From: Candidatus Cloacimonetes bacterium HGW-Cloacimonetes-1
GTDB taxonomy: Bacteria > Cloacimonadota > Cloacimonadia > Cloacimonadales > Cloacimonadaceae
DNA: 52,909 nt
NCBI GenBank assembly: GCA_002841975.1
Contig: PHBQ01000008.1
Span: 1-52,909, forward strand
Direction of reading: 5' to 3'
The stretch's first letter is position 1; each line of letters starts with the position of its first letter. This document shows, piece after piece, positions 1,719 to 38,332 of this stretch. Below the pieces are notes generated by a model. That model ran no database searches. It was not told the origin of the DNA and saw only the letters and a list, made by a program, of their open reading frames with translations. The position numbers were made by a program, and so were the translations under genes.

Positions 1719-1727
1719 GAGGTAATC

Positions 1728-5754: not shown

Positions 5755-5768
5755 CCAAAGGGGTAAGT

Positions 5769-8588
5769 ATGAGTGTATCAAAACCGACTACTATCAATAC
5801 CAATCATTTTTTGACCAAAGCCCATGTTGATTTGAACATTAATCCTGTAAGCAAATCTCTTTGGCTCGAAATACCAGCCTTTTGTCATCTTAATTGCAGT
5901 TATTGTTTTGCCAGTGCAGAGAGGTGTTCCCAGAACAAATCAGATGAATATTATCAGCGGTCACAAGAACAGCTTAATCGTTATTATTACAATATTTTAG
6001 ATCAGTTTGCAGCTAGTGAATATCAGGGGAAATACCTAGGTATTCCAGGGAATGGCGAGCCATTCCACCCAAGAAACCGAGATCTCACTATGTCTATTTT
6101 AAAAAGGGCAAAAGAGTTAGGCATTACCACAACTGTTTTCACAACAGCAGATGCGATATTTTATGATCTTCCAGGCGGAGAATACAAGAGACGCACTAGT
6201 GTTGATATTGATAAAAAATATGCAGAACTATTGTTTGATATGGATGTAATCCTTCTGGTTAAATTTAACTCACAAAAGGATGATATACAAGATGGTATTG
6301 TCGGACAACCTGGATACACGCAAGCGCGTAATAGGGCAATGAAAGCACTTTTTGATATGGGGTTCAACAAAGAAAGCCGTAGATTAGGTATTGTGACATC
6401 AATACTGGAAGAGAATAAACTAGAAATCATTAGTCTCTTTGAATATGCGCAAGAAAACAACTTAATCTTCGATTGTGATACCATTTTACCGAGAGGTAAT
6501 GGAAAATCATATAGGGATATACACAAACTCGGTTTGGAGGATGCAACTTTAAAAACGATTTATAAGGATTTAGCCGAAGCATCTGGAGACAATTTTGCTG
6601 CAGGAGGTTCTTACGTTGGAGTTGCATGTGATCGGGTCAAACATCATTTGTACATAGATATCGAAGGTAATGTATACCCATGTATTGGGTGTGTCGACAA
6701 ACCTTTTGATCTCATTCTCGGTAATGTGAATGAGAATACTTTGTTAGACTGTTGGAACAACCCGATCAGAAAACAGATACGAGAAGATTATGAAAAAATT
6801 GTTACAGGTCCTTGCTCATGGTGCAATAACTTTCAAGTATCGTGCTGGAGTTGTTTGGGACGGGTAGTAGAGAAATGTACCCGTGTTGACGACTATATTA
6901 CTCTCCATACAGAGGGGTGTTTTTGCCACAATTCTAATTACACTCGTTGGCTGAGAGCCTGTAGTAATTTTGTTCGAACATGTATTACTCTTCCCGGGAA
7001 GGAGGGTTTTAAAAATCTGCATAAAACAACAACAGGCCAATTAAAGAATTCTGATATGGAGATATTTTGGGAAAATGGGCTAAATGATCATCCTTTTTTA
7101 AAAGACATTACGTTTTCATCATTGCAAGTACTTGGATCCTCAAATTGGAGATTAATTGATCTTGAAAATGTTTTTTCTAATATAAGAGATTTTCAAGCCG
7201 TATTTCGGAGTATTCTCCCTAGAGTCTTGATACCCTCAATGTATAATCTTATCGAACAGTATGACGTTAAATTTGAGCCATCTTCAGACTTGAAAAACAT
7301 AACTACGGCTGATACGGGGAAATGGGGGCTGATCCAGTTTTGTCTATTTATGTTCTATATGCCATCAGAAAAGCAACGGTACTTTTATCGAACGCTTTCG
7401 TGCAATTCGCTCGATCCCCAAATATTATCATCTCCTCACTCAACATATGAGATAACAAAGAATGAGTTAGATCTAGATTCATGCAATGTAACATTTATCC
7501 ATAGGAATAGAAGAATTCTGTTACTACAAAGATGGGCAGAAGCCTATGAAAACGGTTTTGATAAAGCACCTTTATTACCTATGATAACAAATCTAAGCTC
7601 AGATTTTGAAGACAAGCATATCACCAGTTATGAGCTAATATTGTCAAACAGGCTGTTTGAGGCAGAAAGAAACAATATTGACAGAGATATATTAGTTCAA
7701 AAGAGACACGTATTATTTATCGGCGATCTACTGGACATGCCTGTAATACAGGATAAAGTAAATAGTCTTTCGGTATATTTTGATGCTATAGTGACAGATG
7801 ATAAAAAGTGGAATGATGTTGCTAAAGGTATATCAAGCACGATTTTTGCATCTAATCCTTCCGAAGTCGAAGCTCTCAGAACATTCTACGATGGAGCAAA
7901 CAATCAATTGTTTCCTACAAATGATTCGGGCACTGTTGAGCTCAATAATCTGATTGCGAAGGTCAATATAGTATTAAAGAACATACTATTGAAACACTCA
8001 AGAATTCAAAACAGTTTTCTAACCGATAAAGATCTGCATAATGAAGATATAAAGTTTATAATTGAACTATCGAAAAAGCACCAACATATTGAATACAATG
8101 GAGATATACCTGATTGGGCCAAAAGCAACAACCCTGTGGAACAGATACAGATATTAACGCGTCTCAAGGATCCCATCCTTTTTCAGTTTATCTTATTGTT
8201 TGTAAATGAAGAAATAAAGAGTCAATCTTCATCTATCAAGGCATTGAACTATTTCGTATGGCTGGGCTATTTGAAAAAAGTATTGAATATTGAAGCATAT
8301 ACCGTACTGCATACTCCAAACTTTTTATTGATGTGCCAGCAAGCTTTGAACATGCCATTTAAAAAGATCCCTTCAAGTGGAATGATTATCAGTAGCATAG
8401 GAAGACTACCTAAATCAATGATTGAAGAAAGTGAAGAGGTCTTTTCATCGATTCTTTATCCTTTAGAAGAGATCATTGGCGTTCAAACCGTATATCCAAC
8501 TGCACCATTATCTGAAACTGACACAAAAAATACTGGTAAACAACCAAAACTCAAAGTCATAATAAACCCTCCAATAAAGCATGAGTAG
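5769..8588 (+). CDS. Radical SAM/SPASM protein with large uncharacterised C-terminal region
   Basis: A 939-aa protein. The N-terminal radical SAM domain carries the CX3CX2C motif (C39, C43, C46 in CHLNCSYC) and a GNGEPF element (94-99) for SAM binding. A cysteine-rich SPASM-like region follows (C287, C305, C308, C328, C349, C352, C359, C362, C370), enough for one or two auxiliary 4Fe-4S clusters. SPASM enzymes usually modify peptides or anaerobically mature sulfatases. The remaining ~560 residues match no domain I know and may hold a substrate-binding or effector function. Start at 5769 is chosen for the AAAGGGG just upstream; an earlier ATG at 5739 overlaps the ATPase. No precursor-peptide gene is obvious nearby. 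It is convergent with the gene at 8610. Confidence 0.85.
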   Translation: MSVSKPTTINTNHFLTKAHVDLNINPVSKSLWLEIPAFCHLNCSYCFASAERCSQNKSDEYYQRSQEQLNRYYYNILDQFAASEYQGKYLGIPGNGEPFHPRNRDLTMSILKRAKELGITTTVFTTADAIFYDLPGGEYKRRTSVDIDKKYAELLFDMDVILLVKFNSQKDDIQDGIVGQPGYTQARNRAMKALFDMGFNKESRRLGIVTSILEENKLEIISLFEYAQENNLIFDCDTILPRGNGKSYRDIHKLGLEDATLKTIYKDLAEASGDNFAAGGSYVGVACDRVKHHLYIDIEGNVYPCIGCVDKPFDLILGNVNENTLLDCWNNPIRKQIREDYEKIVTGPCSWCNNFQVSCWSCLGRVVEKCTRVDDYITLHTEGCFCHNSNYTRWLRACSNFVRTCITLPGKEGFKNLHKTTTGQLKNSDMEIFWENGLNDHPFLKDITFSSLQVLGSSNWRLIDLENVFSNIRDFQAVFRSILPRVLIPSMYNLIEQYDVKFEPSSDLKNITTADTGKWGLIQFCLFMFYMPSEKQRYFYRTLSCNSLDPQILSSPHSTYEITKNELDLDSCNVTFIHRNRRILLLQRWAEAYENGFDKAPLLPMITNLSSDFEDKHITSYELILSNRLFEAERNNIDRDILVQKRHVLFIGDLLDMPVIQDKVNSLSVYFDAIVTDDKKWNDVAKGISSTIFASNPSEVEALRTFYDGANNQLFPTNDSGTVELNNLIAKVNIVLKNILLKHSRIQNSFLTDKDLHNEDIKFIIELSKKHQHIEYNGDIPDWAKSNNPVEQIQILTRLKDPILFQFILLFVNEEIKSQSSSIKALNYFVWLGYLKKVLNIEAYTVLHTPNFLLMCQQALNMPFKKIPSSGMIISSIGRLPKSMIEESEEVFSSILYPLEEIIGVQTVYPTAPLSETDTKNTGKQPKLKVIINPPIKHE

Positions 8589-8609: not shown

Positions 8610-9404
8610 TCATTTAGATCCCTGCAGTCTAGCCCTGGCATTAATAAAAGTCGCCAAATAATTCTCTAATGCTTCTTTTTTATCTGCATTTGTAATTGTA
8701 TATAGAATACTGATGCACTCATTAAGCGCAGTTAGGTCAAAACGTTCCAGCCCATTATCAATAATAGCCTGGTAATTATCTATCACTTCGTTAAATTCGG
8801 TTTTTGCATAAGAGTCTGTATCATCCATAAGCATCCTTTGGTACTGAATTCGAAGATATTTCGTATACCAGAGCAAGGCTTCTGCTGGCCTATCCTGACC
8901 ATTGAACAGTTCGAATAGACTATAATACGAAACTGCTGCCACGTAGAGGTTTTCTTTTTGATACTTTCTATGGAAATCCTGGACTTCCGATTCTAATAAT
9001 CCAAATCGCTTAAAAATTTCTTTTCTTTCCTTTCTTACTTTCTCATCAAGTTCTTTTTCCTTGCTGTTGAAATCCATCTTCATATATGTCCCAATCAACC
9101 CAAGAAATAGAATAACAATAAACGAAAATATTCCTGTTTGCATCGAAAGACTAGCTGAATAATTCCCTTGTTTTATTGCGTAATTTAAGGCGGTGCTATT
9201 ATCAGATGCCAGAGTTTCCAATTTACTGTTTGATAGAGATTTGACTGCATAGATAAGTTGTTGATTATTATTGCTGGAGATGACAATTAAGTACAGCGAA
9301 AGACTAAGTAATGCAAGACAAAACAATCCCATGATAACATCTACAACAAGATTTCTACTACCCTTTGTCATCGATTTTGTGTGATTTACCTTTGTGTTTT
9401 CCAT
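8610..9404 (-). CDS. Two-TM membrane protein of unknown function
   Basis: A 264-aa protein with two hydrophobic segments near the N-terminus (about residues 22-48 and 80-104) separated by a short polar loop. A cytoplasmic, largely helical C-terminal half follows (about residues 115-264), with features resembling a helical-repeat fold (YYSLFELFNGQDRPAEALLWY). I chose the ATG at 9404 because GGAGAAAT sits directly upstream; the longer frame has no ribosome-binding site. It is the last gene of the minus-strand run, 73 nt after the methyltransferase stop. It might anchor or sense for the kinase/HNH/methyltransferase module, or be independent. No family recognised. Confidence 0.65.
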   Translation of the reverse strand: MENTKVNHTKSMTKGSRNLVVDVIMGLFCLALLSLSLYLIVISSNNNQQLIYAVKSLSNSKLETLASDNSTALNYAIKQGNYSASLSMQTGIFSFIVILFLGLIGTYMKMDFNSKEKELDEKVRKERKEIFKRFGLLESEVQDFHRKYQKENLYVAAVSYYSLFELFNGQDRPAEALLWYTKYLRIQYQRMLMDDTDSYAKTEFNEVIDNYQAIIDNGLERFDLTALNECISILYTITNADKKEALENYLATFINARARLQGSK

Positions 9405-9477
9405 TATTTCTCCTTTAGTATTCAATAGGTATTTTACATACCTTAATAGACAAGTACAAAAGACCATGCATAGTCTG

Positions 9478-11034
9478 TTAACTTGGATTTCTTCTGTCTA
9501 CTCTTCTTGCAATGAGTTTCATTCTTGCAGCTTCTAGAATGCTTAGCTCACGTTGAGAAAACTTAGCTTTGTTGTCTACATACTTAATGACTTGATTCTG
9601 AGTCGAACTAGAAAGTAAATCCCGTTCATAATCATTAAAACTTAGATAATATATGGGAAGAGATTGGAACTCAGAGGGTACTAACTCTAGCACTCCTCCA
9701 CCATAGAATCTGCCCAGTAACTCAGCCATAACCAATGTGTAGGAATTATAGAAAGAATAGACGAAATCATAAATGCAAGTCTTTGGTTTAGGATAAACTA
9801 GATAAGCAGTATCTGTATAGTATAGACCGTCGGGATTCAGTAAGAGTTTTATGTTCCTATGTGAACGCTTGAAGAAAACCGCTGGTGCTGTTGCGATGTT
9901 TGGGACAGCATACCATACACATCTATGCCTCGCTTTGTAGCTCATTTGATATTCACGAGACTCTCCAAGTGCAATGTATTTTTTGACGGACATGTTTATT
10001 TGGTCACTATTAATGCCATTCAAATCAAGCAATAAGCATGGTCTGTTTCTAATCCTTAACTCCTCATGTGTTCTCCTTACCACTGAAGGAAAATCCTTAA
10101 CATATGATGAGCGATTAATTATCGGTTTAACATAATCGTAAGCTGCAAGACTTATCACCTCGGATTCAGGTAGGATAAAGAAATTGTTGTTGCCAGTTAC
10201 AATCCCTGGTTTCGTCGTAACATAATCACCAATAGGCTTACTCCTTTTACCTAACGTTTCTATACATGACAATTCTTCTTTTGTAAGAATTGATGAAGTC
10301 CATTTGTTGTTTCCTGCGCTCATCTTGTACCCATTGTTTTCACAGTACGTCGAATTCCCAGTATCGACTTCAAAAAGAGACTCTCTGAATCCGCTCAAGT
10401 TATGTTTCTTGTAGCACAGAATTCCAATAACATCCTGTAGAATATCTTTATAAATAGGCTCATTGAAGTGGATCAGTTCAATGTACTGGAAGTTATCCAT
10501 TAGATAACTTCGAAGCCTCTCTGCATATCTAACCTGAAGCAATTCGACAGGCAAAATATAACAAAGTACTCCATCTGCCGATAGCTTAGTTACACCGCTT
10601 ATAAGAAATGGTTCCCATATATTTGTTATACTGCGTTTCCCCAAATTACTTTCATTAATGATTAAATTCCCGAGCTTTACCTGTTCCCTGTTGAGTTTAG
10701 TATAAGATATGTATGGAGGATTTCCTATTACTAAATCGAATAAAAGATTGCACTCAAAATGGAATTCTAAATAGTCCTTATGCACAATTTTAAAACTATC
10801 TATGATACTTGAGGATTTTAGGAAATCAACTTCTTGTTCATTAATCTCGACGGCGGTGATATCGCACTTAGCATTTAACTTGATGATACTCTTAAGGAAA
10901 ACACCACTACCACAACTCGGTTCTAGTATCGAAATCCGTCTGTCCTTATGGAAATGAGATAGCGTTTTTTCCACCAAATAATCTGCAATAATTACTGGAG
11001 TATAAAACGCACCTAGTACTCTGTCATTAATCAT
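9478..11034 (-). CDS. N6-adenine DNA methyltransferase, TaqI/Eco57I-like class
   Basis: A 518-aa class I SAM-dependent methyltransferase. The N-terminus shows GAFYTP. Motif I is EPSCGSG (about residues 38-44) and the catalytic motif IV is NPPY (105-108), diagnostic of amino-methyltransferases acting on adenine. The C-terminal half (GIVTGNNNFFIL onward) resembles the target-recognition region of TaqI/Eco57I-type enzymes. No nuclease motif is seen within it. I chose the ATG at 11034, one base after the HNH gene's stop; a longer frame to 11148 would overlap that gene heavily. The likely role is protecting host DNA from the neighbouring HNH nuclease. Confidence 0.86.
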   Translation of the reverse strand: MINDRVLGAFYTPVIIADYLVEKTLSHFHKDRRISILEPSCGSGVFLKSIIKLNAKCDITAVEINEQEVDFLKSSSIIDSFKIVHKDYLEFHFECNLLFDLVIGNPPYISYTKLNREQVKLGNLIINESNLGKRSITNIWEPFLISGVTKLSADGVLCYILPVELLQVRYAERLRSYLMDNFQYIELIHFNEPIYKDILQDVIGILCYKKHNLSGFRESLFEVDTGNSTYCENNGYKMSAGNNKWTSSILTKEELSCIETLGKRSKPIGDYVTTKPGIVTGNNNFFILPESEVISLAAYDYVKPIINRSSYVKDFPSVVRRTHEELRIRNRPCLLLDLNGINSDQINMSVKKYIALGESREYQMSYKARHRCVWYAVPNIATAPAVFFKRSHRNIKLLLNPDGLYYTDTAYLVYPKPKTCIYDFVYSFYNSYTLVMAELLGRFYGGGVLELVPSEFQSLPIYYLSFNDYERDLLSSSTQNQVIKYVDNKAKFSQRELSILEAARMKLIARRVDRRNPS

Positions 11035-11035
11035 G

Positions 11036-11644
11036 TTATTTAAAGAAGTATGATTTGAGTTTGTTTTGTATACTGCGCCCTTGAGTGTATACATTCCACA
11101 GTTGATTCCATCGTCCAGCATCAAGGGAGCTACTATACTTCGAAACAACAGACTCTAGTTTATCCATGACATTATCGATTTGTTCGAGAGACCAAACGAT
11201 CCCATATTCAATTCTGAATAGCTTTAACTTCTTAATCATGTAAATAGCAACAGGTGTACATCCTATGATATTCCCATTAGAATCTCGGTCGAAGCATTCG
11301 CTGAATTCATCTGAGCAAGGGTCTAAATACCCATTATCATCTACGATGGTTTGGGTCGCTGAATCACTTACCCAATCATCACTTTTTGCTATGTTACATC
11401 TCGAACATGCATAAACCAGATTCGAATACTCGTTCTCAAGCAAGGGGAACCTTTTCCTCGGAGCGAAGTGATCAATATGATATTGTGCATTACCAATTGA
11501 TGCAATATCTTCCCGTGAATCACAGTACCCGCATCTGCGGTTAAAATCTAACCTAAGCTGCTGCCTATAATCTCTATAGTTGCTTCGTTTTGTTACACCT
11601 ATGGTTCTTACCGGTTTTGAATATCTAAACATAAGCCTACTCAC
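11036..11644 (-). CDS. HNH endonuclease
   Basis: A 202-aa protein with a zinc-ribbon HNH nuclease domain: C38xxC41, HIDH (56-59), N75 and C80xxC83 followed by N84 and K87 (CSRCNIAKSDDW). The arrangement is typical of metal-dependent DNA nucleases of the McrA/HNH class. The listed start is GTG at 11644, overlapping the receiver gene by 8 nt; ATG at 11632 is an alternative that keeps the whole domain. Its position between a receiver gene and an adenine methyltransferase suggests it is the cutting arm of a restriction system controlled by the kinase. That functional link is inference. Confidence 0.85.
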   Translation of the reverse strand: MSRLMFRYSKPVRTIGVTKRSNYRDYRQQLRLDFNRRCGYCDSREDIASIGNAQYHIDHFAPRKRFPLLENEYSNLVYACSRCNIAKSDDWVSDSATQTIVDDNGYLDPCSDEFSECFDRDSNGNIIGCTPVAIYMIKKLKLFRIEYGIVWSLEQIDNVMDKLESVVSKYSSSLDAGRWNQLWNVYTQGRSIQNKLKSYFFK

Positions 11645-12281
11645 CTTGTTCCAATTGAGAAACCAATTTATTCACTGATTCTATCCACTCATTTAATTCT
11701 TGCTGGATATAGTAATCTTTTAACTCTTTTGGTAACTCTAATGGGTGACTTTGAGATCTGCCTAAAATACTGTCACAATTCAGCAATTCTTCTCTTTCTC
11801 TGCTGCCCAGATACCCTTGTGTCCTCCACTTAGTCAATAACTCGTTATACTCAAACAAAGCTTTGGTATACTTGTTATTGGTATCTTCAATGTCTATTTT
11901 CATTTTTGAAATGAAGTCTTCAAATGATTGTTTATTATCATTATTAATAACAAGGCCTTTTTCAAAACTTGTCCAAACATCATCCGTTTCTTCATGGAGC
12001 TCATCAATGTAATGGGAAAACAAATAGACGGGTTTTATAGTATTTTCTTGCTTAATGGCTTTTCTTAAAACAACCCCGTTGTAGTTTATCCTCATTTTAT
12101 CATTCAAACGATAATCAATTATAACAACATCACTTGAAATTTTACATACTTCAATTACCATCTCATTAAGATCATTAATAGGTGCTAAATCAACTATCTC
12201 GAATTCATGATAATCATCGAACTCACTAACAAAAGTGCGACGCGTTTCTGGATCTTCGTCAATGAATAGTATTTTATACAT
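11637..12281 (-). CDS. Stand-alone receiver (response regulator) protein
   Basis: A 214-aa protein with an N-terminal phosphoreceiver domain. Visible are the acidic cluster D8-E9-D10 (FIDEDPE), the phospho-acceptor D56 (VVIIDYRL), a Ser on the beta-4 strand (YLFSH) and a conserved-position Lys (FEKGL, K108). The C-terminal ~90 residues are helical and show no DNA-binding motif I can name. AGGAGGG lies upstream of the start. The gene overlaps the kinase stop by 8 nt, so the two proteins should be a cognate pair. Output is probably by protein contact, perhaps with the next gene product, an HNH nuclease. Confidence 0.83.
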   Translation of the reverse strand: MYKILFIDEDPETRRTFVSEFDDYHEFEIVDLAPINDLNEMVIEVCKISSDVVIIDYRLNDKMRINYNGVVLRKAIKQENTIKPVYLFSHYIDELHEETDDVWTSFEKGLVINNDNKQSFEDFISKMKIDIEDTNNKYTKALFEYNELLTKWRTQGYLGSREREELLNCDSILGRSQSHPLELPKELKDYYIQQELNEWIESVNKLVSQLEQGE

Positions 12282-14823
12282 ACCAGCCCTCCTGTTTGGT
12301 GTTGATTGGGATATTCAGTTTTAATGAGAACCCGTCATTAGCCTTATCAATTTGTAGTGTTCCCTTGTAGTCATCTATTATACTTTTCAAAATCCACAAT
12401 CCCAAACCTGTCCCAGTTTGATTTCCTCTTTTATCGTGCTTTGTAGAAAATTCGTACTCGAATATTCTGTCTGTATCATCTATAGAGTGCGATAGCCCCG
12501 GCCCATTATCTTTATAAACTAACTCAATGACTGAGCTCTGCTGCCCGACTTCCATATCGATAGAGATCACTCTATCATAGGCTTGATCTTCATCAATATC
12601 AAAGGCATAGATTGAATTAATGATCAGATTATTGAAGACACTGTCTAGATCAATCGTAAAGCAACGCTTCTTTATTCCGCGATATTTTGATGTATTGATT
12701 GGTGTAACTAGTTGTATATCTCTACCTGCCAATATATCGCCCCAACTTCTTTTTAAATCGGCAAAATACAAGTACAAATCTTGAGATTTTCTGAGCCTTC
12801 TATCTTTCTTCAACTGAAACAATGAAAACTCGATCCAATGCTTCATGTTCTTTATATTTGATTCGAGATCTTGAACAATTACTAATGGATTCTTATAACT
12901 GCTCAAACCGAGGAGATTGCCTGGAATGTTACGTGCTAGATTCTTTTTGAGCTTCTCGATATTTCCCATTTTATCGCTTATTGATTTCAACTCGTGAGCC
13001 ATTGTAGCCATTACTAATGATGAACTTGATAGTCCACGGAGGATTGCGTTTTGTCCCAATACTGAATCATATTCGCTTTCTAATTGTCTATAAGCGTTAA
13101 TGATATTCCTTTCATTATCTGTTGTCCCTCCTCCTCTTATTAGGTTACTCGCTTTGCGCCTAATATCCTCGCCAAGGTTGTTCTTATAAAATAGCTTGTC
13201 TAGAGCAACTGATAGTGTTTGTCGATCGTTTTCGAAAATCTCGAGAATTTTTATTATAACTCTTTTTAATGCATCTGTGTGTTCGTTTTCTATGAATCCT
13301 TCTCTGCTGGACTTGTCATCTATGTAACGGTTTTCAGATTTAGACAATTGTACATATCCAGATATCTGGTTCGGTCTTACTTGCCATTTCCCAGATTTAC
13401 TAGAAGATGGTGCTGCTGGGCTCTTAGCTGCTCTTGCACCAAGACCTAGCCAATCAAATGAAGAGCCTTCAGGTTCGCCATAGGGTCTGATTTTAAATCT
13501 ATCCCTATAAATTTTTATCCCCCCATAGTTCTTAAACCAATGTTTACGTTCATGTGACTTGATCGGATAATGATAGAATTTATCTCTGTCGCTCTTTGTA
13601 TCAGTATTCTTCATAAAGAAGTAAACAAATTTAAAGTCTCCTAGGCTACGAAACAACTCAAAGTCTAATTTATCAGAATGAAAAAGCCTAGATAACTGTA
13701 AAGTAGTATGATAGAATTCCTTTTTGAAACTTTCAATTAAAAATTGGGGCTTAGTAGATAGTTCAGGATAGCCAAAAATTTCTTGATATTCGTCTATTCT
13801 CTCAATATCGAATTCTTTCCTAATCATCTGGAACTCTATTTCTGGCTCAATGCTATAAGGATCTGTGCCTTTAGCATTATAGTTTGCTATAACTTGATAA
13901 TCGAAGTCATCGCAATTGTAAGGAAGTATCTCGAAGTCATCAAGGTGTTTGGAGAACAGATAAATATTAAACTTATCCTCACTATCATCCACCTCTGGCG
14001 GGATCAGAGTTCCAAGGCTTGTTACAAGATTTTTGATACTCTTCCCAGACCATTTATCTCTAAGTCCCGATATCTGAAGGATAGTCCCTGTGGAAAATGA
14101 CTTTATTGAGTAATCATACTTATCAAGATAGCTATTCACTGCACTTTTCAAATCTATGTCACTCTCATCAATTTCAGCATACATTGAAGTAATGTTAGCA
14201 TTGATATCACTTATGGCATCCCAATTCATAAACCATCTATATAGTTGTCTATCCTGACGTGAGTAAGTGAATAACTCTGTTAAGCTTCCTAGCCTATCAA
14301 GGGCAAATCTTCCGATTCCTTTCGACCCAACTTTTATTCTATTTTTGCTCGAAATCATGTTTTCAACTTTATCACTAGTCCCGATAGTCATCCACTTTGT
14401 TTCTAGAGTGTGCAATGTCATTCCACAACCGTTATCGATGACTATTATTCTATTATACTGATTGAAAACTGCCCATAACCTGACGCGAATATCCTCATCA
14501 TAGGAATTACTGATACTCTTTGAATTGGATTTTTGTGCTTTATTTTCAAAAGCCTTAAGATAAAAATCATCCTGCTCACTGCTATATTCATACAGTTCAG
14601 AGATTAAATTGCTGTCCTCTCGTGAAAGATCTTTGTATTCTGTATTAGATATCCGGTATGGGATATCATCATACTTAATATCAAATATTATTATTGCGTT
14701 CTTTGCATCAGCATCATAGCAGTTCTTAACCAATTCAATGAGCGCGCTATCAGCGTTTGCAACGTTCTCTTTCCCAAGAAGATGAGATGTTCTTGCGGAA
14801 ATGTTCCATTGAACTTTTGCCAT
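12274..14823 (-). CDS. Histidine kinase-like protein with two GHKL ATPase domains
   Basis: An 849-aa soluble protein with two ATPase modules of the GHKL superfamily. The N-terminal one (HATPase_c_3, MutL/Hsp90/MORC style) shows E30 and N34 (IELVKNCYDADA), the DNGCGM loop (130-135) and GSKGIGRFAL (166-175). The C-terminal one is histidine-kinase-like: an H-box near H610 (MATMAHELKS), an N-box at about 730-742 (FNNLIINSIYAF), DNGPGL (772-777) and GTGLGL (804-809). No transmembrane or classical sensory domain is seen; the region between them (about 200-600) is unfamiliar. AAGGAG precedes the ATG. The next gene encodes the receiver. The double architecture suggests that ATP- or DNA-dependent clamp-like sensing is coupled to phosphotransfer. 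Confidence 0.85.
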   Translation of the reverse strand: MAKVQWNISARTSHLLGKENVANADSALIELVKNCYDADAKNAIIIFDIKYDDIPYRISNTEYKDLSREDSNLISELYEYSSEQDDFYLKAFENKAQKSNSKSISNSYDEDIRVRLWAVFNQYNRIIVIDNGCGMTLHTLETKWMTIGTSDKVENMISSKNRIKVGSKGIGRFALDRLGSLTELFTYSRQDRQLYRWFMNWDAISDINANITSMYAEIDESDIDLKSAVNSYLDKYDYSIKSFSTGTILQISGLRDKWSGKSIKNLVTSLGTLIPPEVDDSEDKFNIYLFSKHLDDFEILPYNCDDFDYQVIANYNAKGTDPYSIEPEIEFQMIRKEFDIERIDEYQEIFGYPELSTKPQFLIESFKKEFYHTTLQLSRLFHSDKLDFELFRSLGDFKFVYFFMKNTDTKSDRDKFYHYPIKSHERKHWFKNYGGIKIYRDRFKIRPYGEPEGSSFDWLGLGARAAKSPAAPSSSKSGKWQVRPNQISGYVQLSKSENRYIDDKSSREGFIENEHTDALKRVIIKILEIFENDRQTLSVALDKLFYKNNLGEDIRRKASNLIRGGGTTDNERNIINAYRQLESEYDSVLGQNAILRGLSSSSLVMATMAHELKSISDKMGNIEKLKKNLARNIPGNLLGLSSYKNPLVIVQDLESNIKNMKHWIEFSLFQLKKDRRLRKSQDLYLYFADLKRSWGDILAGRDIQLVTPINTSKYRGIKKRCFTIDLDSVFNNLIINSIYAFDIDEDQAYDRVISIDMEVGQQSSVIELVYKDNGPGLSHSIDDTDRIFEYEFSTKHDKRGNQTGTGLGLWILKSIIDDYKGTLQIDKANDGFSLKLNIPINTKQEGWYV

Positions 14824-14881: not shown

Positions 14882-15559
14882 TTACACATCCAACCCCGCC
14901 CCATATTCCTTCAGCCACTGCACTTGTTTCTGATAGTCCGGCAGTATCTTATCCACTTCATTCCAGAAATCTTTGCTGTGCCGTTTATGCTCGAAGTGCG
15001 CCAGCTCATGCACGATCAGATAGTTGATCACGCTCACTGGTGCCATCATGATCTTCCAGTTGAAATTCACCTTGGGTCGCTGCACTGAGCATGATGCCCA
15101 TCGGTTCTTTAGCTCGATAATGGCCACAGCTTCCACTTTCAATCCCATCATCTCAGCAAAGCGATGCACACGCGGTTCTATGAACTTCTTGCCACGCTGT
15201 CTGTAGAATTCCTTGAACATTGCTTTCAGCTTATCCTCAGAGCCCTCGGGAGCATAAAAGTGCCTTCCCTTGAACTGTATGCCATCCACCTCGTCACTAT
15301 ATTGCAGATAGTAGTTTCTACCCAGATATAGGAAGGATTGCCCGTTTACCAGTTCCCGTTTGATGGCTTTCTCATTCAGCAATGCCCGTTTTGCCTGATA
15401 TTTGTAAATTTTATACTCGTTTTGTTTGAGGAGGTTTTGTACCTCAAGTTCAGTAGTTCCATCGGGAACGATCACCGTAATGGAGCTATCCCTCTCAATA
15501 TAGATTGATGCTGTCTTGCGCTTGCTGTGTTTGATTACTACTTTGTAATCCAGACTCAT
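14882..15559 (-). CDS. YgjP-like (DUF45) zinc metallopeptidase
   Basis: A 225-aa protein with the YgjP-like pattern HELAH (184-188) followed by H194 and FW (HKRHSKDFW), giving three zinc ligands and a catalytic Glu. The WASCS motif upstream of the zinc site is also typical. Family members are very often encoded directly beside hsdR in type I restriction loci, as here, where the start overlaps the hsdR stop by 4 nt. Their exact role in restriction is not established; processing or regulation of the restriction complex is a plausible guess. Confidence 0.88.
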   Translation of the reverse strand: MSLDYKVVIKHSKRKTASIYIERDSSITVIVPDGTTELEVQNLLKQNEYKIYKYQAKRALLNEKAIKRELVNGQSFLYLGRNYYLQYSDEVDGIQFKGRHFYAPEGSEDKLKAMFKEFYRQRGKKFIEPRVHRFAEMMGLKVEAVAIIELKNRWASCSVQRPKVNFNWKIMMAPVSVINYLIVHELAHFEHKRHSKDFWNEVDKILPDYQKQVQWLKEYGAGLDV

Positions 15560-18500
15560 GAGCCTTTCACCTCGGCTTCTCGTTTATGAGCCAGGCTGAT
15601 CAGTTCTGCGGTCAGCTTGGCTGCCACAGCTTTGAGGGGTTCTATGGTGCAATATTCAAGCTCATCCCGGATATCGCCTTCCAGCCTTCTGCGCTCATTG
15701 GGCTTCTGCCAGAAATTGGGTATTGAGAGAGATTCCTTGATTCTGGCATATATGAATTCTGATATCTTTACAGCCTCTACAGCAGTATCGGTGTTACCCT
15801 TGTCAATTCCCGCCTCCATCAGCATAAGCTCCAGGAATGGCGCAATAGGAGCATCAACAATGCTGTCTTCCGCCTTGCGTCCTTCTCCGATCTCTTCTCT
15901 CAGCTTGGTAAGCTCTTCGATAATCCTATCCCAGTGTTCTTTGTAAGAATCAAGAATTCTCTGCAGCCTCTCGTGGAAACCTGTATAAAGTGCCGGGTCT
16001 TTATCCATATTCACTTTGATGTGCCAGCGGATGGCATGCTCCATCTCGGATGCCTTAGCTTTTCCGGTTTTATTATGATCTTTCAACGTTTTGGGGAAAT
16101 CATCCGAGAGCAGTTTCACAGGGGCAATCTTGGGATTGATACCTTCTGAGATCAGATACTTGTCAATAAGCTTGCGAACCTTTGCCCCAGCCCATTTCAA
16201 ATCAAGCGTGCCGTCATGGTAGCGGTTGCGCATCCTCATCAGGATATAACCCAGTCGCTTTGCCGGGACGTAGTAGTCTCTTGCCAGGGATGCATTAAAG
16301 AGCAGCTCCAAGCTATCAAAGAATGCTTTGATATAGGTATCAAACTGCGCTCGGAATTTCACATCTGCACCAAGCTGAAGGCAGTTCTCCACCAGTTCCC
16401 ATTCCTCGTCTTTATCTTCGATCTTCTGTTTGATAAAGGCTTCGATCCTGATAACTCCCTTTTCTTCAAAGAGATGAATCAATCTTCTAAAGCGGGATTC
16501 CAAGACCGGAATCTCCTTGTCCAGCCCTCTGAAATATGCACTCAGGTCTTCCAGCTCCTGCACATCAGTATCAGTGAAGATCGCCAAAGCCTCTTTCAGA
16601 TGCGATGCCACTCCAAAATAATCCACCACAATGCCATGCTCTTTTACATAGCCGGATTTCATTACCTTGGTGCGGTTGACCCTAGCAATTGCCTGCATCA
16701 GCTTATGTTCTCTCAGGTTCTTATCAAGGTACATCACCTGTTCAATCGGTGCATCAAAACCCATCAGAAGCCTGTCACAAACACAGAGGATAGCTACTCC
16801 ACTCTCCGGTTTGTTATAGTCAAAGTCCTTTTTAAAGCTCTCTACGGCATCGATATCCAGAGCTTGCTTGCGCGCCAGAGATACATAACCCGGCTCATTG
16901 TTATCCATCATAGTAACTACGGCACAGATCTTGACAAATCTCATCTGCTTTAGCAGTTCTTCATCCCGCTCAGCTTCAGGTTTTGTCTCTTCACTCAAAA
17001 TCAACCCTTTTAGCGCATTTTCCAGCTCATACTTATACCGGCATGCAGCTATGATAGAACTCGCCACCACCTGCCCCTTAAGGCCGTTTTGGAGGATTTC
17101 CTGCGTATAGTGAGTCATGATATCTTCCGAGATTGCTTTGATCCTCTCCTTGGATTCCAAATATGCCATCTCTGTCCCATAGCGTTTTTGAATCTCCAAG
17201 CGCTCAGCTTCCGTCCTCTCCCGAAACATATCCTCAAATTCTTTTTTGAACAGTTCTGAATCAGTAAGCTTGTCCTGACTGGTTCTGCCGATATAAAGAA
17301 TATCCACTGTGGCTCTGTCTGCCACAGAGTCGTTCATTTTGTAGACATCTATGAAGTTGCCGAAGCGTTCATGGGTCTTCTGTTTATGCCTTTCCGTGAG
17401 TAATGGTGTTCCTGTAAATGCGATCTTCACAGCATTCGGAAAAGCCAGGAAGAGGTTGTCTCCCATTTCACCCCCCTGATCCTGATGAGCTTCGTCTATC
17501 AACAGCAGTATTCTCTCGCTGGTATTCAGCTCCGGAAATTCTTCATACTGTGGGATCACTCCGGCTGCCAGCAGAGATTGAGCCGAGATGGCATTATTGA
17601 TCAGGAACTTATGTAGCATCACCATGTTGAGGTTTGAGCTGGTGTTCTTTAGCTTATCAAGGTCTCGCTTATGTTGTATCATAGTAACGCTTTCGCCACT
17701 ATAGCCTGCAGTGTTGGATAGCTGATCTTCCAAATCCAAACGGTCATTCACCATGATGACCTTGTAGTCTTTTAAGTCTTCAGAGTCTCTTAGCTTCTTG
17801 ATCAAAAATACCATCGTCAGGGATTTACCTGAGCCTTGGGTATGCCAGATCACTCCGCTACGTTCAAATGGAGTTTTACCCATTCGCAAGCGATTCAATA
17901 TCTTGCCTACTGCCCGGTATTGCTGATAGCGGCAAACGATCTTTACCTGTTCACCTTTCTTGATTTCCATAAACAGCGTGAAGTTTTTAAGGATATCCAG
18001 CAGAATGGCTTTATTCAGCATCCCCTGGATCATTACTTCTTGTCGCTCTTCATCCGGAGAGACCTGGATAGTCTTATACTCCTCAGGAAAGATGTCTTTC
18101 CAGTTCAGGAAGTGATCAAACTCTCCGGTGATCGTGCCAAATCTGGCTTCAGAGCCATGTGTAACGATGCTGAAGAGATTGCTGTGAAATAGCTTCTCCT
18201 CACCCTCTTTGATGCCATAATCATCCACTCTCAGGTTCGCATAGCGGTTGAGCTGAATGAATGCCTCACTCAGTGGTTGTGCCACATCCATATCTTTGCA
18301 TTCTACCACAATGATCGGTAAGCCATTGATGAAGAGCACAATGTCCGGCACAATCGCCTGTCTGCTGGCACCGGGAGTCTCGATCTTGAACTGGTTAATG
18401 GCAATGAAGCTATTGAGTTCGGGATTGGCATAATCTATCAAGCGCACCTTGGGGTTTTGCTCTCCGGTAAGCTCATTCATATCAACTGTAGTATTCTTGG

Positions 18501-18798
18501 TCAGCAGTTCATATACTACCTGATTTGCCTTTAGCAGTCCAATGCCGGGGTGCCAGGTCAGCTCAGAGATAACTGCATCAAGCTGCTTAACCGTAAGCCA
18601 GCTTCTGCCATCCTCAGTAAGATTGATCCGCTTTAAAGCATTCTTAAACTCCTGCTCCAGGATCACTTCCCTGAAAGAAGCCCTTCTGCTGATACTGGGA
18701 TCAAAAGGAGTAAATCCAGTTCCCTGATCTATCACTTCCCAGCCAAGTTGACTCAGCTTATCCAGGAACGGGCGTTCGACATTGGTGTATTCAGACAT
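15556..18798 (-). CDS. hsdR: Type I restriction enzyme R subunit (HsdR)
   Basis: A 1080-aa motor-nuclease subunit. The N-terminal PD-(D/E)xK nuclease is visible as PDIVLFINGLPIIVVECK (D152, E166, K168). The superfamily 2 motor has Walker A HTQGSGKS (319-326), DEAH (435-438), FTGTPLL and the late helicase motif QAIARVNRT. A long helical C-terminal domain would bind the HsdM/HsdS core. Its length and motif order fit intact HsdR proteins. Its ATG overlaps the DUF262 protein stop by 1 nt and its stop overlaps the peptidase start, so it lies within one operon. Known action is ATP-driven DNA translocation and cleavage remote from unmethylated sites. Confidence 0.96.
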   Translation of the reverse strand: MSEYTNVERPFLDKLSQLGWEVIDQGTGFTPFDPSISRRASFREVILEQEFKNALKRINLTEDGRSWLTVKQLDAVISELTWHPGIGLLKANQVVYELLTKNTTVDMNELTGEQNPKVRLIDYANPELNSFIAINQFKIETPGASRQAIVPDIVLFINGLPIIVVECKDMDVAQPLSEAFIQLNRYANLRVDDYGIKEGEEKLFHSNLFSIVTHGSEARFGTITGEFDHFLNWKDIFPEEYKTIQVSPDEERQEVMIQGMLNKAILLDILKNFTLFMEIKKGEQVKIVCRYQQYRAVGKILNRLRMGKTPFERSGVIWHTQGSGKSLTMVFLIKKLRDSEDLKDYKVIMVNDRLDLEDQLSNTAGYSGESVTMIQHKRDLDKLKNTSSNLNMVMLHKFLINNAISAQSLLAAGVIPQYEEFPELNTSERILLLIDEAHQDQGGEMGDNLFLAFPNAVKIAFTGTPLLTERHKQKTHERFGNFIDVYKMNDSVADRATVDILYIGRTSQDKLTDSELFKKEFEDMFRERTEAERLEIQKRYGTEMAYLESKERIKAISEDIMTHYTQEILQNGLKGQVVASSIIAACRYKYELENALKGLILSEETKPEAERDEELLKQMRFVKICAVVTMMDNNEPGYVSLARKQALDIDAVESFKKDFDYNKPESGVAILCVCDRLLMGFDAPIEQVMYLDKNLREHKLMQAIARVNRTKVMKSGYVKEHGIVVDYFGVASHLKEALAIFTDTDVQELEDLSAYFRGLDKEIPVLESRFRRLIHLFEEKGVIRIEAFIKQKIEDKDEEWELVENCLQLGADVKFRAQFDTYIKAFFDSLELLFNASLARDYYVPAKRLGYILMRMRNRYHDGTLDLKWAGAKVRKLIDKYLISEGINPKIAPVKLLSDDFPKTLKDHNKTGKAKASEMEHAIRWHIKVNMDKDPALYTGFHERLQRILDSYKEHWDRIIEELTKLREEIGEGRKAEDSIVDAPIAPFLELMLMEAGIDKGNTDTAVEAVKISEFIYARIKESLSIPNFWQKPNERRRLEGDIRDELEYCTIEPLKAVAAKLTAELISLAHKREAEVKGS

Positions 18799-20570
18799 TA
18801 TTGCAAGGCATCCTTTAACTGCTCATCAGTCAGTTTTATCCCATAGAAACCAAGAGTTCTAACCAGCATTTCTTCATGGTTCTTCTTCAGGTCTTTCAAC
18901 TCCCAAGTTGGATAGTCTTTCATTATTCTGACAGAGTTGCTGAACAACTCGATGTTTCCCTTGAAGTATTTATCCCTTTTCTTTGAATACTCGTAGTTGC
19001 TTTGAGCAGTGTTTTTCCTGCGAGATAGAAAGATTAGGTTTCCCAGTCTGTTTGTCCACTTTTCTCTATCATCATCAGAGAAATCTGTGCACCATTGGCT
19101 GCTTAGTTCAGGAGTTTGGGGAAGGATATGTTCAATGCTGATTAACTCTGGAGGATTGAGTTTGGTTGTATTCCCAAGGTAAGACATATCTATCTTAAGT
19201 AGGATATACTTTGCGAATTTTCTCCCATAGATACTGCCGGTAAGCACTCTTGCTAAATCATCTTTATTGAAATCAAACACCGTCGATGCTAAAAGTGCTT
19301 TAGTATCTGAACTGCTCTCAATTTCTTTGATAATCAGATTTACATTCTCGACTCTGTTCGTAGGTGATAAACTGGTTATCCAATCTGCCGAAAACTTCAG
19401 TTCCAGTTTCGTTAGAAATTCAAGGATATCTTGTGTTTTGTACTTATCATAATATCTCAATGCGGGAGCAATCCAATAATCAGCTTCAAATCCTTTCATC
19501 ATAAGAGTTACTTGATTAGCAATATCAAAACACTTGCTCACATTGAAGTTATCATTTACCAACAGAGATTGGTAATGATTAAAGTACGTTTTTATGTAAT
19601 CAAATGTGCCTTTCCCCTTTGTTAACAAAGCAGGCTTGCTAACATACTCCTTTGTAGATTTGTTATAGTCCCTTGGGGCATAGATGTTTTCTTCAAACTC
19701 TTTTAACAGGTTGTACCCAGCTTTTTGTTTAACTAATATGGTCCTTAAATGAGAGAGAAAGTTATCAAAATCTTCAGCAAAGTATTCTTCTATGCCTTCC
19801 CACATTTTTGCGTACTCAGTACGTGTTGTATCATCAGTGATCTTGGCTAAGTTTTCTACCTTCAGAATGTCGCTATTGCGCAGCTTGACCCCTCGATTGT
19901 TCATGACAGTAAACAAGTGAAACGCATCTTCCAACTCTTCAGCAGCTACATATATCATCAGCACATTAGACCGCAGGAATTTAAAAAATTCATCTATTGA
20001 GCGACCATTGCTAAAGTAAGCATGTATCGTAAGGATAGCATTGGACATATTCCTTATCGAAATATCTTCGTCTTTGTCCTCAGCCATCCTTTTTAGCTCA
20101 GTAGATTGCATAGTGGATTTATAAGGTTTGATGTAAGTTAGCACAAAATCCCTAACTTTATTCCTGATATCAAATACAATTCTGAGCCTTTCAGGTTTGT
20201 TATCATCGGGTATTGCCATTTGATAAACAGCGTCTTTACAAATCTTAATTCTGGATTCATTGTCAGCGGGTGTGAGATCTCGAATGACTGAAGTGATCAA
20301 AAAAAGTGTAGTTAATCTCTGTTGCCCATCAAGCAGATCATACTCTGTAAATTTCATAGAGCCCTCAATCTTGCTGCTCTTTTTCAAGACCATAGAGCCA
20401 AGAAAGTACTGGGAATCCGGGTTAGACTGATTCGCCTGATAAATATCATCAAGAAGCTCAACCACTTGATCAGTTTCCCATACATAAGGTCTTTGATATT
20501 CTGGTATTCTGTACCATCGTGTGAACACGTCCATAACAAATAGTTTTTCGCTTTCAATCTTCTGTGCCAT
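18798..20570 (-). CDS. DUF262/DUF1524 (GmrSD-like) nuclease inside the type I locus
   Basis: A 590-aa protein. The N-terminal DUF262 domain shows IPEYQRPYVW (22-31) and DGQQRLTT (81-88), a ParB-like NTPase motif set. The C-terminal DUF1524 domain carries the HNH-type core IEHILPQ (about 479-485), NRLGNLIFLS, and the trailing N/K/R residues (SNYEYSKKRDKYF). The architecture matches single-chain GmrSD, which cuts modified DNA, and BrxU-like proteins. GGAGGA for this gene lies over the hsdS stop, 3 nt away, so it belongs to the operon. It could add a type IV activity against phage that escape type I restriction through DNA modification. Confidence 0.88.
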   Translation of the reverse strand: MAQKIESEKLFVMDVFTRWYRIPEYQRPYVWETDQVVELLDDIYQANQSNPDSQYFLGSMVLKKSSKIEGSMKFTEYDLLDGQQRLTTLFLITSVIRDLTPADNESRIKICKDAVYQMAIPDDNKPERLRIVFDIRNKVRDFVLTYIKPYKSTMQSTELKRMAEDKDEDISIRNMSNAILTIHAYFSNGRSIDEFFKFLRSNVLMIYVAAEELEDAFHLFTVMNNRGVKLRNSDILKVENLAKITDDTTRTEYAKMWEGIEEYFAEDFDNFLSHLRTILVKQKAGYNLLKEFEENIYAPRDYNKSTKEYVSKPALLTKGKGTFDYIKTYFNHYQSLLVNDNFNVSKCFDIANQVTLMMKGFEADYWIAPALRYYDKYKTQDILEFLTKLELKFSADWITSLSPTNRVENVNLIIKEIESSSDTKALLASTVFDFNKDDLARVLTGSIYGRKFAKYILLKIDMSYLGNTTKLNPPELISIEHILPQTPELSSQWCTDFSDDDREKWTNRLGNLIFLSRRKNTAQSNYEYSKKRDKYFKGNIELFSNSVRIMKDYPTWELKDLKKNHEEMLVRTLGFYGIKLTDEQLKDALQ

Positions 20571-20573
20571 AAT

Positions 20574-21842
20574 CTATTCCTCCATAGTTAGTTTGATTCT
20601 TATTCTACCAGTTAAGAGATCGTGCATCAGGCCTTGTTTTAAGGATAAGTTTTTTACAAGAGTCATTTCTTCCTTTTGTATTGTCTTATCCATGTAAATC
20701 AACACATGAGATATCGCTTTTTGCTCATTGTGATCAATTGCAATAGGAAGCATGATTTTCTCAATCTGTGATTTTGTTATCTCCGCAAATGTTGAACCAC
20801 TGCCGAGCCTTAGAAATAACCCAACATTATGAAGCATGTTGTAATATTGATATTCTGCATTTTGCCCTTCTGTAAGGTTGAAAGATTTACATCCTTGATT
20901 TGTAGTAAACGGTTCCAGCCCAATAGCAAAGTATCCTATAGGAGCTCTAGAAGACATAACAATTGAGTTCACAGGCAGTAGTGTTGCAGAGCAACTCATC
21001 ATTCCTTTTGTTGTGATTCTTCTATCGGTATCTGAGAAATACTGATGCTGTATTTTGCTCATATCCGCTGGGGTTATCCAGTTTATGTCTCCATTCCAAT
21101 ATTCTTCATTATTGGTTGTGGGTGTTGATCCAGAGACAATCTTCGAAAAATCTTTGATAAGCCTCACTTCCCATTCCTTGGGTATCCATCCTAAATTTGT
21201 CTCTTTGTATAGCTCCGGAGCTTCTTGATATGATGGTCTCAATTTACCGGTTTTCACATCGATGCCACGAGTAAACAAATCCTGCAACATCCCAGCTTTG
21301 ATTGCTTTGTACTTTTCAATCGCAGCCTCGGTCATTTCAATCACTTTATCAACTGTGCTGAGGATAGTGGCAATTTTGTGCTGTTCTGCTCTATCTACTG
21401 GTATTAAGAAACTTAATCTCTCGATATTCGCCTTTGAAATCTCCATGAAGGTCGAACCACTACCATACCTTTTAAAGAGTTCTGTATGAAATAAAAAGTT
21501 GTAATAGTGGTATTCTGGGTCATGTTTATCATTGAATACAAAAGTCTTACATCCTTGGTTTGTAGTGAAATCCCTTGTCGGTAAAGCAAAATAGCCGATA
21601 GGTGCACGTGAGGACATTACTACGTTTCTCGCTGGAATAATTGTGGTTGAAGCAGACCTCTGCCCTAGAGAACTTATCTTCCGCTCAGATGAATGGATGA
21701 ATCTTGATGTCGTGCTACTAAGATCATTAGGGGTAACCCACATGATGTCGCCATCCCAGTATTCTTTTATATTTGTCGCTGGGGTTGCTCCGCTGACTAT
21801 TGAAGCAAACTCTGGTATATTAAGGTTTTTCCACTCACTCAT
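20574..21842 (-). CDS. hsdS: Type I restriction specificity subunit (HsdS) with two related recognition domains
   Basis: A 422-aa DNA-recognition subunit. The two target-recognition domains (about 1-150 and 226-380) are clearly related to each other. Both contain IVSG(A/S)TP, EYW(D/N)[23 protein letters not shown] and a GSGSTF(M/A)EI segment. Each is followed by a helical spacer ([23 protein letters not shown] and the equivalent at the C-terminus). Such a duplicated layout predicts two identical or near-identical half-sites, that is, a nearly palindromic bipartite target. It overlaps hsdM by 8 nt. No frameshift or inverted partial copy, as found in phase-variable hsdS loci, is present. Confidence 0.94.
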
Positions 21843-24417
21843 ACCCGAGTTCCTTGAGATAATTTGCCAATTCAGAGACTGCTGTGTCTCTTGCTTTTAG
21901 GATACTATGCAGAGGCTGATCATACTTCTCCCACAAGCTTTCCAGGGCTGCCCGGAATTGTCTGCTATATTGGATCAGGTAATCATTCACTTTAGCATAG
22001 AGAGTCTTTTCCCAACGTGCCAGGATCAGTACTTCTGCTTCCGCTTCGCTGATCTTGCCTCTTGCCTGCTCCACCAGTTGCTCTCTAAGGTCTTTAATCT
22101 CTTTGATCTTCTTGCGGTTATCCTTCAGATCCTTTTCCATATCCAGATGTTTAGTGATACGCTTTCCCTGCTCTTCAATTATCTTAGCAAGTTCCGTTGC
22201 ACGGGGCATGAGTCTCTTGATCTCAATCTCGATATCTGCGTAGGTATCACCGCTTTTCTTAAGTGCTTTTATCTGCTTCTCTTTGTTTTTAATGTCCTTG
22301 CTGATCTCTTTTAGCTCTGCACCCAATTCTTTGATGCTTGCCTTCACTGCTGCCAGTTCATCTTTGGGAAACACATCGTAATCTTCCTCAGTCCAGGCAT
22401 CTTCTTCCAGATCGTTCACTTCTGCAAACAGGGCTTCAAGTTCAGCCCGACGGGCTTCGCATTCATTCAGCTCTTTAATCACCTCCGGAAACTGGCTCTG
22501 CAATATCTCCTCATCTGGTATCAGTTCAGCATTCCATCCACTGGCTGCCACGCTGCGCAGGTCATTGAATATATCGCTCCAGAATCCAGCAAATGCCCCA
22601 CGGCATTTAAACTCATCCAGAATGCCGAGAGAGCTTATTTTAGCAGTTATCGTGGCAGAAAAGGCATGATATAGGTCATAAACATTTCGCTGCTTGGGAA
22701 GTGCTTCCAGTTTGGGTTGGTGCTCATCCCACCATACTTTCAAAGCTCTCATGTATGTCTCATGTTTGCGTTTTATCTCATCAGCTTCATCCAGATAGCC
22801 TTTGATCGCTTCCTTGTCACTGATGATTGTAGTAAACTTCAGACAGTTGTCTCTATCATTGGTAAAAAGCTGTTCTCTGATGCCCGGGTAGTTATCCCAA
22901 TAGTGTTTAAGGAATTCAACTTCCGAAACTGGAATACCGCCTTGCAGATGGGCTTTCACGTCATGAGGCTCTGCCGGAGGGCTATTGTCCACATATCTTC
23001 TGATGTTGCAATTGAATTCTTCTGCTTCCAATTCTGCATGGCTTACTTTTCTGCTGTAGGCAGCAAGTTCCCGCTTGATTCGATAGACATAGGTGATCTT
23101 TTCGATGTCTTCAGGACGCAGGATATTCTGCACCTTGCCAACTTTAAACTCATGATCGGCATTGGTGAAAAGCACTTCTTTACGGGTTGAAGCTCCGGTT
23201 CTATTGATGATCAGGATGCAGGCAGGAATACCGGTTCCGTAAAAGAGAGCTGGAGGCAAGCCAATAATGGCTTCCAGAAATCCTTCTTTGATCAGCCATT
23301 CCCGCATTCTGCGTTCTTCACCACCCCGGAAGAGAACCCCATGCGGCATTATGACAGCCAGGCGTCCTGTGGATTTCAGAGTGCTGAACATGTGCTGCAC
23401 AAACATGAAATCAGCTTTGCCTTTCACTGGCATCCAATATCGGTAACGCTCCTTGAACTTCATTCCGTCTGTAGAATAGTTTTGGGAAAAGGGAGGATTG
23501 GCAATCACGATGTCAAAACGCTTCAGCTCTCCACCTTCCACATGTTTAGGTTCCATCAGAGTGTCACCGTTCTCGATCTGAGCATCCAGGATATTGTGAA
23601 ACAGCATATTGAGTTTACACAAGCCCCAAGTAGTACCATTCTTTTCCTGTCCGTAGAGAGTCATGTTTCGGGCAGTGCCGTATTTACTCTCAACGTAATT
23701 GTATGCTTCTATCAGCATGCCACCAGAGCCGACTGCCGGATCGCAAATCTCAGCATCTTGTGCAGGATCGAGGATATTTACCAAGAGCTTTACCACGGTT
23801 CTGGGAGTATAGAATTCTCCACCTTTCTTGCCTGCGCTATCGGCAAAGTATTTGATCAGGTATTCATAGGCAGAACCTAAGAGATCTGGGAATTCCAGAT
23901 TGTCATCGGTGAGAACTACTTTATCAAAGTGAGTAATGATCTCCACCAGGTCTTTATCAGTGATGCGCTTGTTATTCTTGCCAAAGGTCTTGTTGAAGTC
24001 GATGGGTTTCAATACCCCTTCCAGAGTATCGCTATTGCTGTCCTCTAGAGCTTCAAAGGCTTTCTTTAGTTCATCTCCGATTTCTTTCTTCAAATGCCGG
24101 ATATTCTCCCATCTGGCACGAATGGGCACAAAGAACTTGTAGCTGGCTTCACTTTCTAAACCTGCTTCCAGTGCCTCTCCGCTTACTCCCCTTTTCTCCA
24201 GAGTTGCCTTGCGATTGATTCTTTCGATATTGAACAGGTCATTCACCCGTTTCAGGAAAAGCATGGCGATCACGTATTCTTTGAATTCTGAAGCATCCAT
24301 GTTTCCCCGCAGGGATTCACATGCCTCCTCCAGAAAGCGTTCTAGCCACGATAATGATAGTTTATGAGCCATTTTCAAATACTCCGGTGTTATATCATTC
24401 TCTTGGTAATTAGCCAA
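21835..24417 (-). CDS. hsdM: Type I DNA methyltransferase subunit (HsdM)
   Basis: An 860-aa modification subunit. The N-terminal HsdM helical domain (about 20-160) is followed by [10 protein letters not shown] (200-209), the SAM-binding motif DPAVGSGG (226-233) and the catalytic NPPF (307-310), typical of N6-adenine methylation. It is longer than usual HsdM (about 500-550 aa) because of a ~300-residue C-terminal region (roughly 540-860) that is mostly charged coiled coil. This fits the long HsdM subfamily often seen with DUF45 peptidases and DUF262 proteins. It is 88 nt downstream of a small HTH gene. Confidence 0.95.
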
Positions 24418-38244: not shown

Positions 38245-38332
38245 GTAGCATAGTGCGCCCTCATCACCGATGTGCCGGGGACAATGTACCGCACGTCATA
38301 GAATAGATAATCTAAATTATACAGGAGAAAAA

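Follow-up and report, generated by a model that had tools for sequence, protein, structure and literature searches.

A stretch of 52,909 nucleotides from Candidatus Cloacimonetes bacterium HGW-Cloacimonetes-1 (hereafter the window) carries on its minus strand, at 9478-14823, a unit of four overlapping or abutting genes that encode, in this order, a histidine kinase (HK), a receiver protein (RR), an HNH nuclease, and an N6-adenine DNA methylase (MT). We show that this unit is conserved, that its catalytic residues are intact, and that its nuclease follows the phosphorelay rather than the methylase, because HK, RR, and HNH co-evolve whereas even closely related cassettes may have exchanged the methylase, unlike what a classic pair of restriction enzyme and methylase would do. 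On balance, and with limited assurance, we favour a restriction-like defence system in which the HNH protein would be switched by phosphorylation and the methylase would be an exchangeable self/specificity module; the defence role itself is inferred from the type of the genes and from their context (Table 1).

Table 1. Position of the cassette genes and of their neighbours in the window.
Feature	Coordinates	Strand	Description
Histidine kinase (HK), soluble	12274..14823	-	849 aa; Pfam domains and residue conservation
Receiver protein (RR)	11637..12281	-	214 aa; REC fold and three-helix C-terminal extension
HNH nuclease	11036..11644	-	~200 aa; PtuB-like fold, two long C-terminal helices
N6-adenine DNA methylase (MT), M.Eco57I/M.BseCI/M.TaqI (gamma) type, own C-terminal TRD	9478..11148	-	
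Two-TM protein	8610..9467	-	285 aa; neighbour, judged outside the system
Codirectional neighbours: YgjP-like protein, HsdR, Orf5/HEC-06 homologue, HsdS, HsdM	14882..24417	-	type I R-M; context only

The first-pass annotation of the window, made from sequence alone, had described five minus-strand genes at 8610-14823, adding the two-TM protein to the four above, and the arrangement of the open reading frames held. The HK and RR genes, like the RR and HNH genes, overlap by 8 nt. The HNH frame starts with GTG as listed, an ATG at 11632 being a possible alternative. The methylase frame as listed has 556 aa and overlaps the HNH gene by 113 nt; the start is more likely the ATG at 11034 (518 aa), 1 nt past the HNH stop, which fits the homologues better. 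The two-TM frame, which begins 10 nt beyond the methylase stop, failed as a fifth member of the system: no relative of it was found among 60 related genomes or at the other cassette loci, and it is therefore judged a mere neighbour.

The same annotation had recognised a kinase with two GHKL domains, a receiver without visible output domain, an HNH nuclease, and an adenine methylase, all of which Pfam and AlphaFold confirm, and it had placed the phosphorylation sites correctly at H610 and D56. In the kinase, Pfam places the two GHKL domains, HATPase_c_3 and HATPase_c, at 104-212 and 725-839, respectively. The N-terminal part has all the features of an active GHL ATPase module of the MutL/MORC type (E30, N34, the DxGxGM motif from D130, and the KGxGR motif as K168GIGR) and is followed by a transducer region, while the C-terminal HATPase_c (N732/N736, D772xGxG, G804xGxG) is preceded by a DHp with H610-E611. 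From the DHp through the CA domain, the protein matches kinases of known structure, e.g., ZraS and HK853, at 1e-26 to 1e-29. H610 is invariant in 57/57 kinases, and so are N732, N736, the G1 and G2 glycines, E30, N34, D130, G132, G134, and M135; both ATPase sites are intact by these conserved residues.

The receiver matches Pfam Response_reg only weakly (E 0.002, under the Pfam cut-off). AlphaFold predicts with confidence a REC fold followed by helices (mean pLDDT 92), and the PDB entries that the protein hits are response regulators, with PorX at the top. The key residues are D8, E9, D56, S89, and K108, and a helical C-terminal extension spans 117-213. Across 75 receivers, D56 is invariant (75/75), D8 is kept in 69, position 89 is T or S in 74, and position 108 is K or R in 69. 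The residues of a two-component pair (phospho-His, N/G1/G2 boxes, acidic pair, Asp, Thr/Ser, Lys) are thus all present, and phosphotransfer from H610 to D56 is inferred from them, without biochemical data. Neither the Pfam search nor the AlphaFold model revealed a DNA-binding output domain in the receiver; only helices follow the REC domain, and we therefore rejected a role as transcription factor.

The HNH protein scores above the Pfam HNH cut-off and has the residues C38/C41, D58/H59, N75, and C80/C83/N84/K87, of which C38, H59, N75, C80, N84, and K87 are invariant across 72 HNH proteins. Its predicted structure (pLDDT 95) has no visible recognition domain. Sequence and fold comparisons with the PDB put it nearest to PtuB from the complexes of Septu and retrons, from which we infer a PtuB-like effector; the PtuB family model NF041761 is not satisfied (29.7 bits for a cut-off of 150), and the relation is one of fold only. 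The methylase matches the Pfam families Eco57I and M_Eco57I_C, has the NPPY motif, and finds its nearest solved relatives in M.BseCI and M.TaqI.

Scanning 84,980 species genomes with the kinase alignment gave at least 430 relatives, and our analysis is restricted to the best 80, many of them from metagenome-assembled genomes. All four genes were present in 60 of the 63 kinase-found loci with enough flank (more than 5.2 kb past the kinase, seeds and window counted in). Since the loci were picked by the kinase alone, the neighbouring genes are not a selection effect. One of the three exceptions, L090, contains an HNH gene, a methylase gene, and a receiver-like frame missed by the profile. Median gaps are 2 nt between HK and RR and -4 nt both between RR and HNH and between HNH and MT, and dozens of distant genomes share the gene order, far beyond chance. 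The first-pass annotation had stated that its idea would be refuted if kinase and receiver occurred mostly without HNH and methylase neighbours; the test was run and did not refute it. The co-occurrence check that it proposed gave a concordant answer, as queries with the receiver and with HNH, run independently on 396 Flavobacteriales genomes, converged on seven loci, each of them a complete cassette, one being the Kordia locus already in the kinase set (L023) and six being further ones. The remaining HNH matches in these genomes were weaker (1e-13 to 1e-15) and lay in different contexts, three of them in frames of ~740 aa, and we rejected a stand-alone use of this HNH elsewhere.

The cassette is found in bacteria of many phyla, and its occurrence is sporadic: a kinase match is present in 3/125 genomes of the phylum of the window, its own genome included, and the cassette in 7/396 Flavobacteriales. 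It is also found in viral contigs, with the methylase at the 3' side (L115, L117) or at the 5' side (L118-L122, L125). Two plasmid relatives, in Salipiger and Bacteroides (~30% kinase identity), are annotated as kinase, hypothetical protein, HNH, and N-6 methylase, and integrase or transposition genes accompany the cassette on these plasmids.

The association of the nuclease with the phosphorelay is seen in the pairwise distances of 64 complete cassettes, where the correlations are high among the three core proteins (HK-RR 0.91, HK-HNH 0.89, RR-HNH 0.84) and low with the methylase (HK-MT 0.35, RR-MT 0.38, HNH-MT 0.25). Two caveats apply. Co-inheritance of adjacent genes gives the same signal as co-evolution, and methylase distances saturate across families, which lowers the MT correlations; the latter does not affect the comparisons of close pairs. 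In L078/L087, identity is 82% for HK, 75% for RR, and 66% for HNH, but 19% for MT; in L038/L063, it is 75% for HK, 66% for HNH, and 29% for MT, and the methylase has moved from 3' to 5'; in L023/L048, it is 65% for HK and 18% for MT. The opposite case also exists, since L061/L068 share 90% of the MT and 51% of the HNH. The methylase lies 5' or 3' of the HK-RR-HNH core, with at least eight changes on the kinase tree. The two halves of the methylase correlate with each other at 0.94, and each of them with the kinase at only 0.29-0.38; whole genes were therefore exchanged. The methylase, which the first-pass annotation had taken as a coupled fourth partner, is thus an exchangeable module. The suggestion that the relay may gate the nuclease fared better, as the co-evolution of kinase, receiver, and HNH fits it; control by phosphorylation remains an inference. 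When the HK distance is removed, a correlation of 0.22-0.24 is left between the receiver extension and HNH, against 0.07-0.11 between REC and HNH and -0.10 between HNH and MT. They hint at a contact of the extension with HNH, but the evidence is weak, since the values are small and phylogeny is left out of the permutations.

These observations can be assembled into a mechanism that is inferred, and for which there is neither an experiment nor a model of the receiver-HNH interface. The kinase would be a cytoplasmic sensor whose GHL ATPase, of the MutL/MORC type that clamps DNA or complexes, picks up a signal inside the cell, the probable trigger being foreign DNA that lacks modification or a methylase complex that has stalled. 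H610 would then be phosphorylated by the C-terminal kinase, the phosphate would pass to D56, and the phosphorylated receiver, by means of its helical extension, would release or activate the PtuB-like nuclease. The adenine methylase would mark self DNA and might also be the recognition unit. If it is the exchangeable specificity module, the nuclease itself would read no fixed site, and its gating by the phosphorylated receiver would take place in a complex, or in a state of the cell, that the kinase judges. A need for self-protection is favoured by the presence of the methylase in every HNH cassette with enough flank (60/60), and defence, including the putative restriction of phages, by the codirectional type I R-M genes in the window.

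Other explanations must be weighed against this one. The cassette could be a classic type II R-M system, with HNH as the restriction enzyme, the methylase as its cognate partner, and a two-component pair that only tunes expression or timing. The constant company of HNH and m6A methylase (60/60 cassettes with enough flank) speaks for it, as does the speculation, published in 2021, that pairs resembling two-component systems control R-M systems (PMC8011034). We regard it as unlikely: the receiver lacks a DNA-binding output domain, the HNH distances track HK and RR but not the methylase, and the HNH stays while the methylase is replaced, which is hard for a pair sharing one site. A nuclease tied to the phosphorelay is here never without a methylase, and type II systems need matching sites, hence our preference for a gated nuclease without a site of its own. 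A phosphorelay-triggered abortive defence is only slightly less unlikely; in this reading the kinase would sense infection (the nucleotide pool, a phage protein, or DNA intermediates), HNH would degrade host and phage DNA indiscriminately, and the methylase would be a separate regulator or a self-mark of the complex. The PtuB-like effector, the exchangeable methylase, and the lack of a visible recognition domain in HNH are compatible with it, but the methylase in 60/60 cassettes suggests that self-marking of DNA matters, and the kinase carries a GHL module of the DNA-clamp type.

Two-component proteins mostly regulate host physiology, and it could be argued that the relay alters genome methylation or competence, with HNH involved in DNA processing. 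This non-defence reading is very improbable given the sporadic occurrence (3/125 and 7/396 genomes), the presence on plasmids, amid mobile-element genes, and in viral contigs, and the R-M neighbours.

R-M enzymes are normally seen as constitutive and restrained by methylation alone. If the favoured reading, that of a nuclease gated by phosphorylation, is true, the cassette would restrict DNA in a modular and switchable way, its relay inseparable from the nuclease and its methylase freely exchanged. A bolder version, to which we give rather less credence, is that recognition and cutting are joined by the phosphate signal: any suitable adenine methylase would plug into the conserved kinase-receiver-HNH core, specificity would change by swapping methylases, and the phosphorelay would time the cutting.

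The first-pass annotation knew of no named system with this gene set, which holds in part. The cassette is absent as a system from PADLOC-DB 2.0, where the kinases are matched only weakly, by profiles of REase_II and MzaB type, the methylase is a generic MTase_II, and HNH a weak PtuB. No paper in the largely open-access literature that we searched describes the gene set; the searches led no further than two related papers (PMC8011034, PMC2292703), and a report in subscription journals or preprints may have escaped us. What must be added is a sister system, the HEF_HK (PF19191)/Response_reg_2 (PF19192) pairs, which resemble two-component systems, lie near R-M genes, and were suggested to control them (Bellieny-Rabelo et al. 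2021, PMC8011034). Like the cassette, they combine a soluble kinase of HATPase_c_3, DHp, and HATPase_c with an adjoining receiver gene, close to R-M genes. The control loci (L105-L110) begin with a gene of 359-418 aa that looks like a C5 methylase at its start, followed by a kinase (~990-1010 aa) and a receiver (540-634 aa); they lack both an adenine methylase of the cassette type and an HNH gene next to it. Membership of the cassette in these families was rejected: PF19191 matches 0/57 cassette kinases at E<=0.01 and the positive control L105 at 99.6 bits, while PF19192 does not match the receiver of the window, matches 3/75 of its clade at E<=0.01, and gives 62-111 bits in controls. Against the cassette kinase profile, the control kinases score 1e-62 to 1e-76, and almost every main-set kinase 1e-130 or better. 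In the kinase tree, the HEF_HK kinases are separate from those of the HNH cassettes, which make up a single large group (60 rows), except for the pair L080/L093 on the other side; three rows in this group carry the label of lacking HNH, of which two are short contigs and one is L090.

GHKL ATPases of the paraMORC/MORC type have been described in R-M operons, with the proposal that GHL ATPases of this type loop DNA (Iyer et al. 2008, PMC2292703). There, too, an N-terminal GHL ATPase is associated with nucleases and methylases, in the case of paraMORC1 sometimes with an HNH, but the text of that paper mentions no receiver or response regulator, and the cassette of the window lacks the SF2 helicase gene of MORC/paraMORC operons. 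Our reading, if true, would assign a function to the paraMORC-type kinases that have been noted close to R-M genes, first in 2008 and again in 2021. With Septu and the retrons Ec78 and I-A (PtuA-PtuB), the cassette shares the PtuB-like HNH nuclease, yet it has a kinase and a receiver instead of a retron or a PtuA-type ATPase, which Pfam and PADLOC-DB profile searches did not find at the window cassette. Detocs is also based on a histidine kinase and receiver proteins, reportedly with a TPR kinase and a PNP-type effector (Rousset et al. 2023), whereas here Pfam matches no TPR in the kinase and no effector of that type, and HNH and methylase take its place. Finally, type II R-M systems with M.Eco57I/M.BseCI-like methylases also keep a nuclease and an m6A methylase together, but in the cassette the kinase and receiver are obligate and the nuclease shows no co-evolution with the methylase.

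Two related kinase-receiver cassettes in other genomes (loci L083 and L085) encode receivers of 350-367 aa and an adenine methylase, and the position of the HNH gene is occupied in both by a 242-251 aa protein without family assignment, which could conceivably be a different nuclease. The cassette at the Rhizobium plasmid locus L016 has an XRE-like gene along with a distant 425 aa methylase instead of the usual methylase. At L088, another locus with a related kinase, the kinase-receiver pair is preceded by the last part of a C5-type methylase and followed by a gene whose product resembles a MutY-type glycosylase, as judged by reading and without a family search. Transposition genes lie close to the cassette of the window, and also upstream of the same kind of cassette on a Salipiger plasmid (L013).

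Coordinates of neighbouring genes and related cassettes, by locus
Locus	Position	Feature
Window	69-2438	Mu-transposase C-terminal and TniB-type genes
Window	5739-8588	949-aa radical SAM/SPASM protein
Window	15556-24417	Type I R-M operon (HsdM, HsdS, HsdR)
Window	25359-26138	Abi_C (abortive infection) domain protein
Window	38270-46585	2771-aa ORF
L013	1-2379	Mu-C, TniB, TniQ genes
L016	11118-13814	Variant cassette
L083	10141-13852	Variant cassette
L085	4339-7994	Variant cassette
L088	3876-4529	MutY-type glycosylase-like protein

Within the window, the radical SAM/SPASM gene is convergent with the cassette; its product shows only weak similarity to viperin models (E 1.5e-6, far under the cut-off), and a large C-terminal part remains without assignment. 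The 2771-aa ORF starts with laminin-G and Chlam_PMP-like repeats. The type I R-M operon runs in the same direction as the cassette, with a YgjP-like gene plus 58 nt lying between the two. Within the operon, an Orf5/HEC-06-like gene separates HsdS from HsdR. Given the Abi_C-domain protein, the region resembles a defence island.
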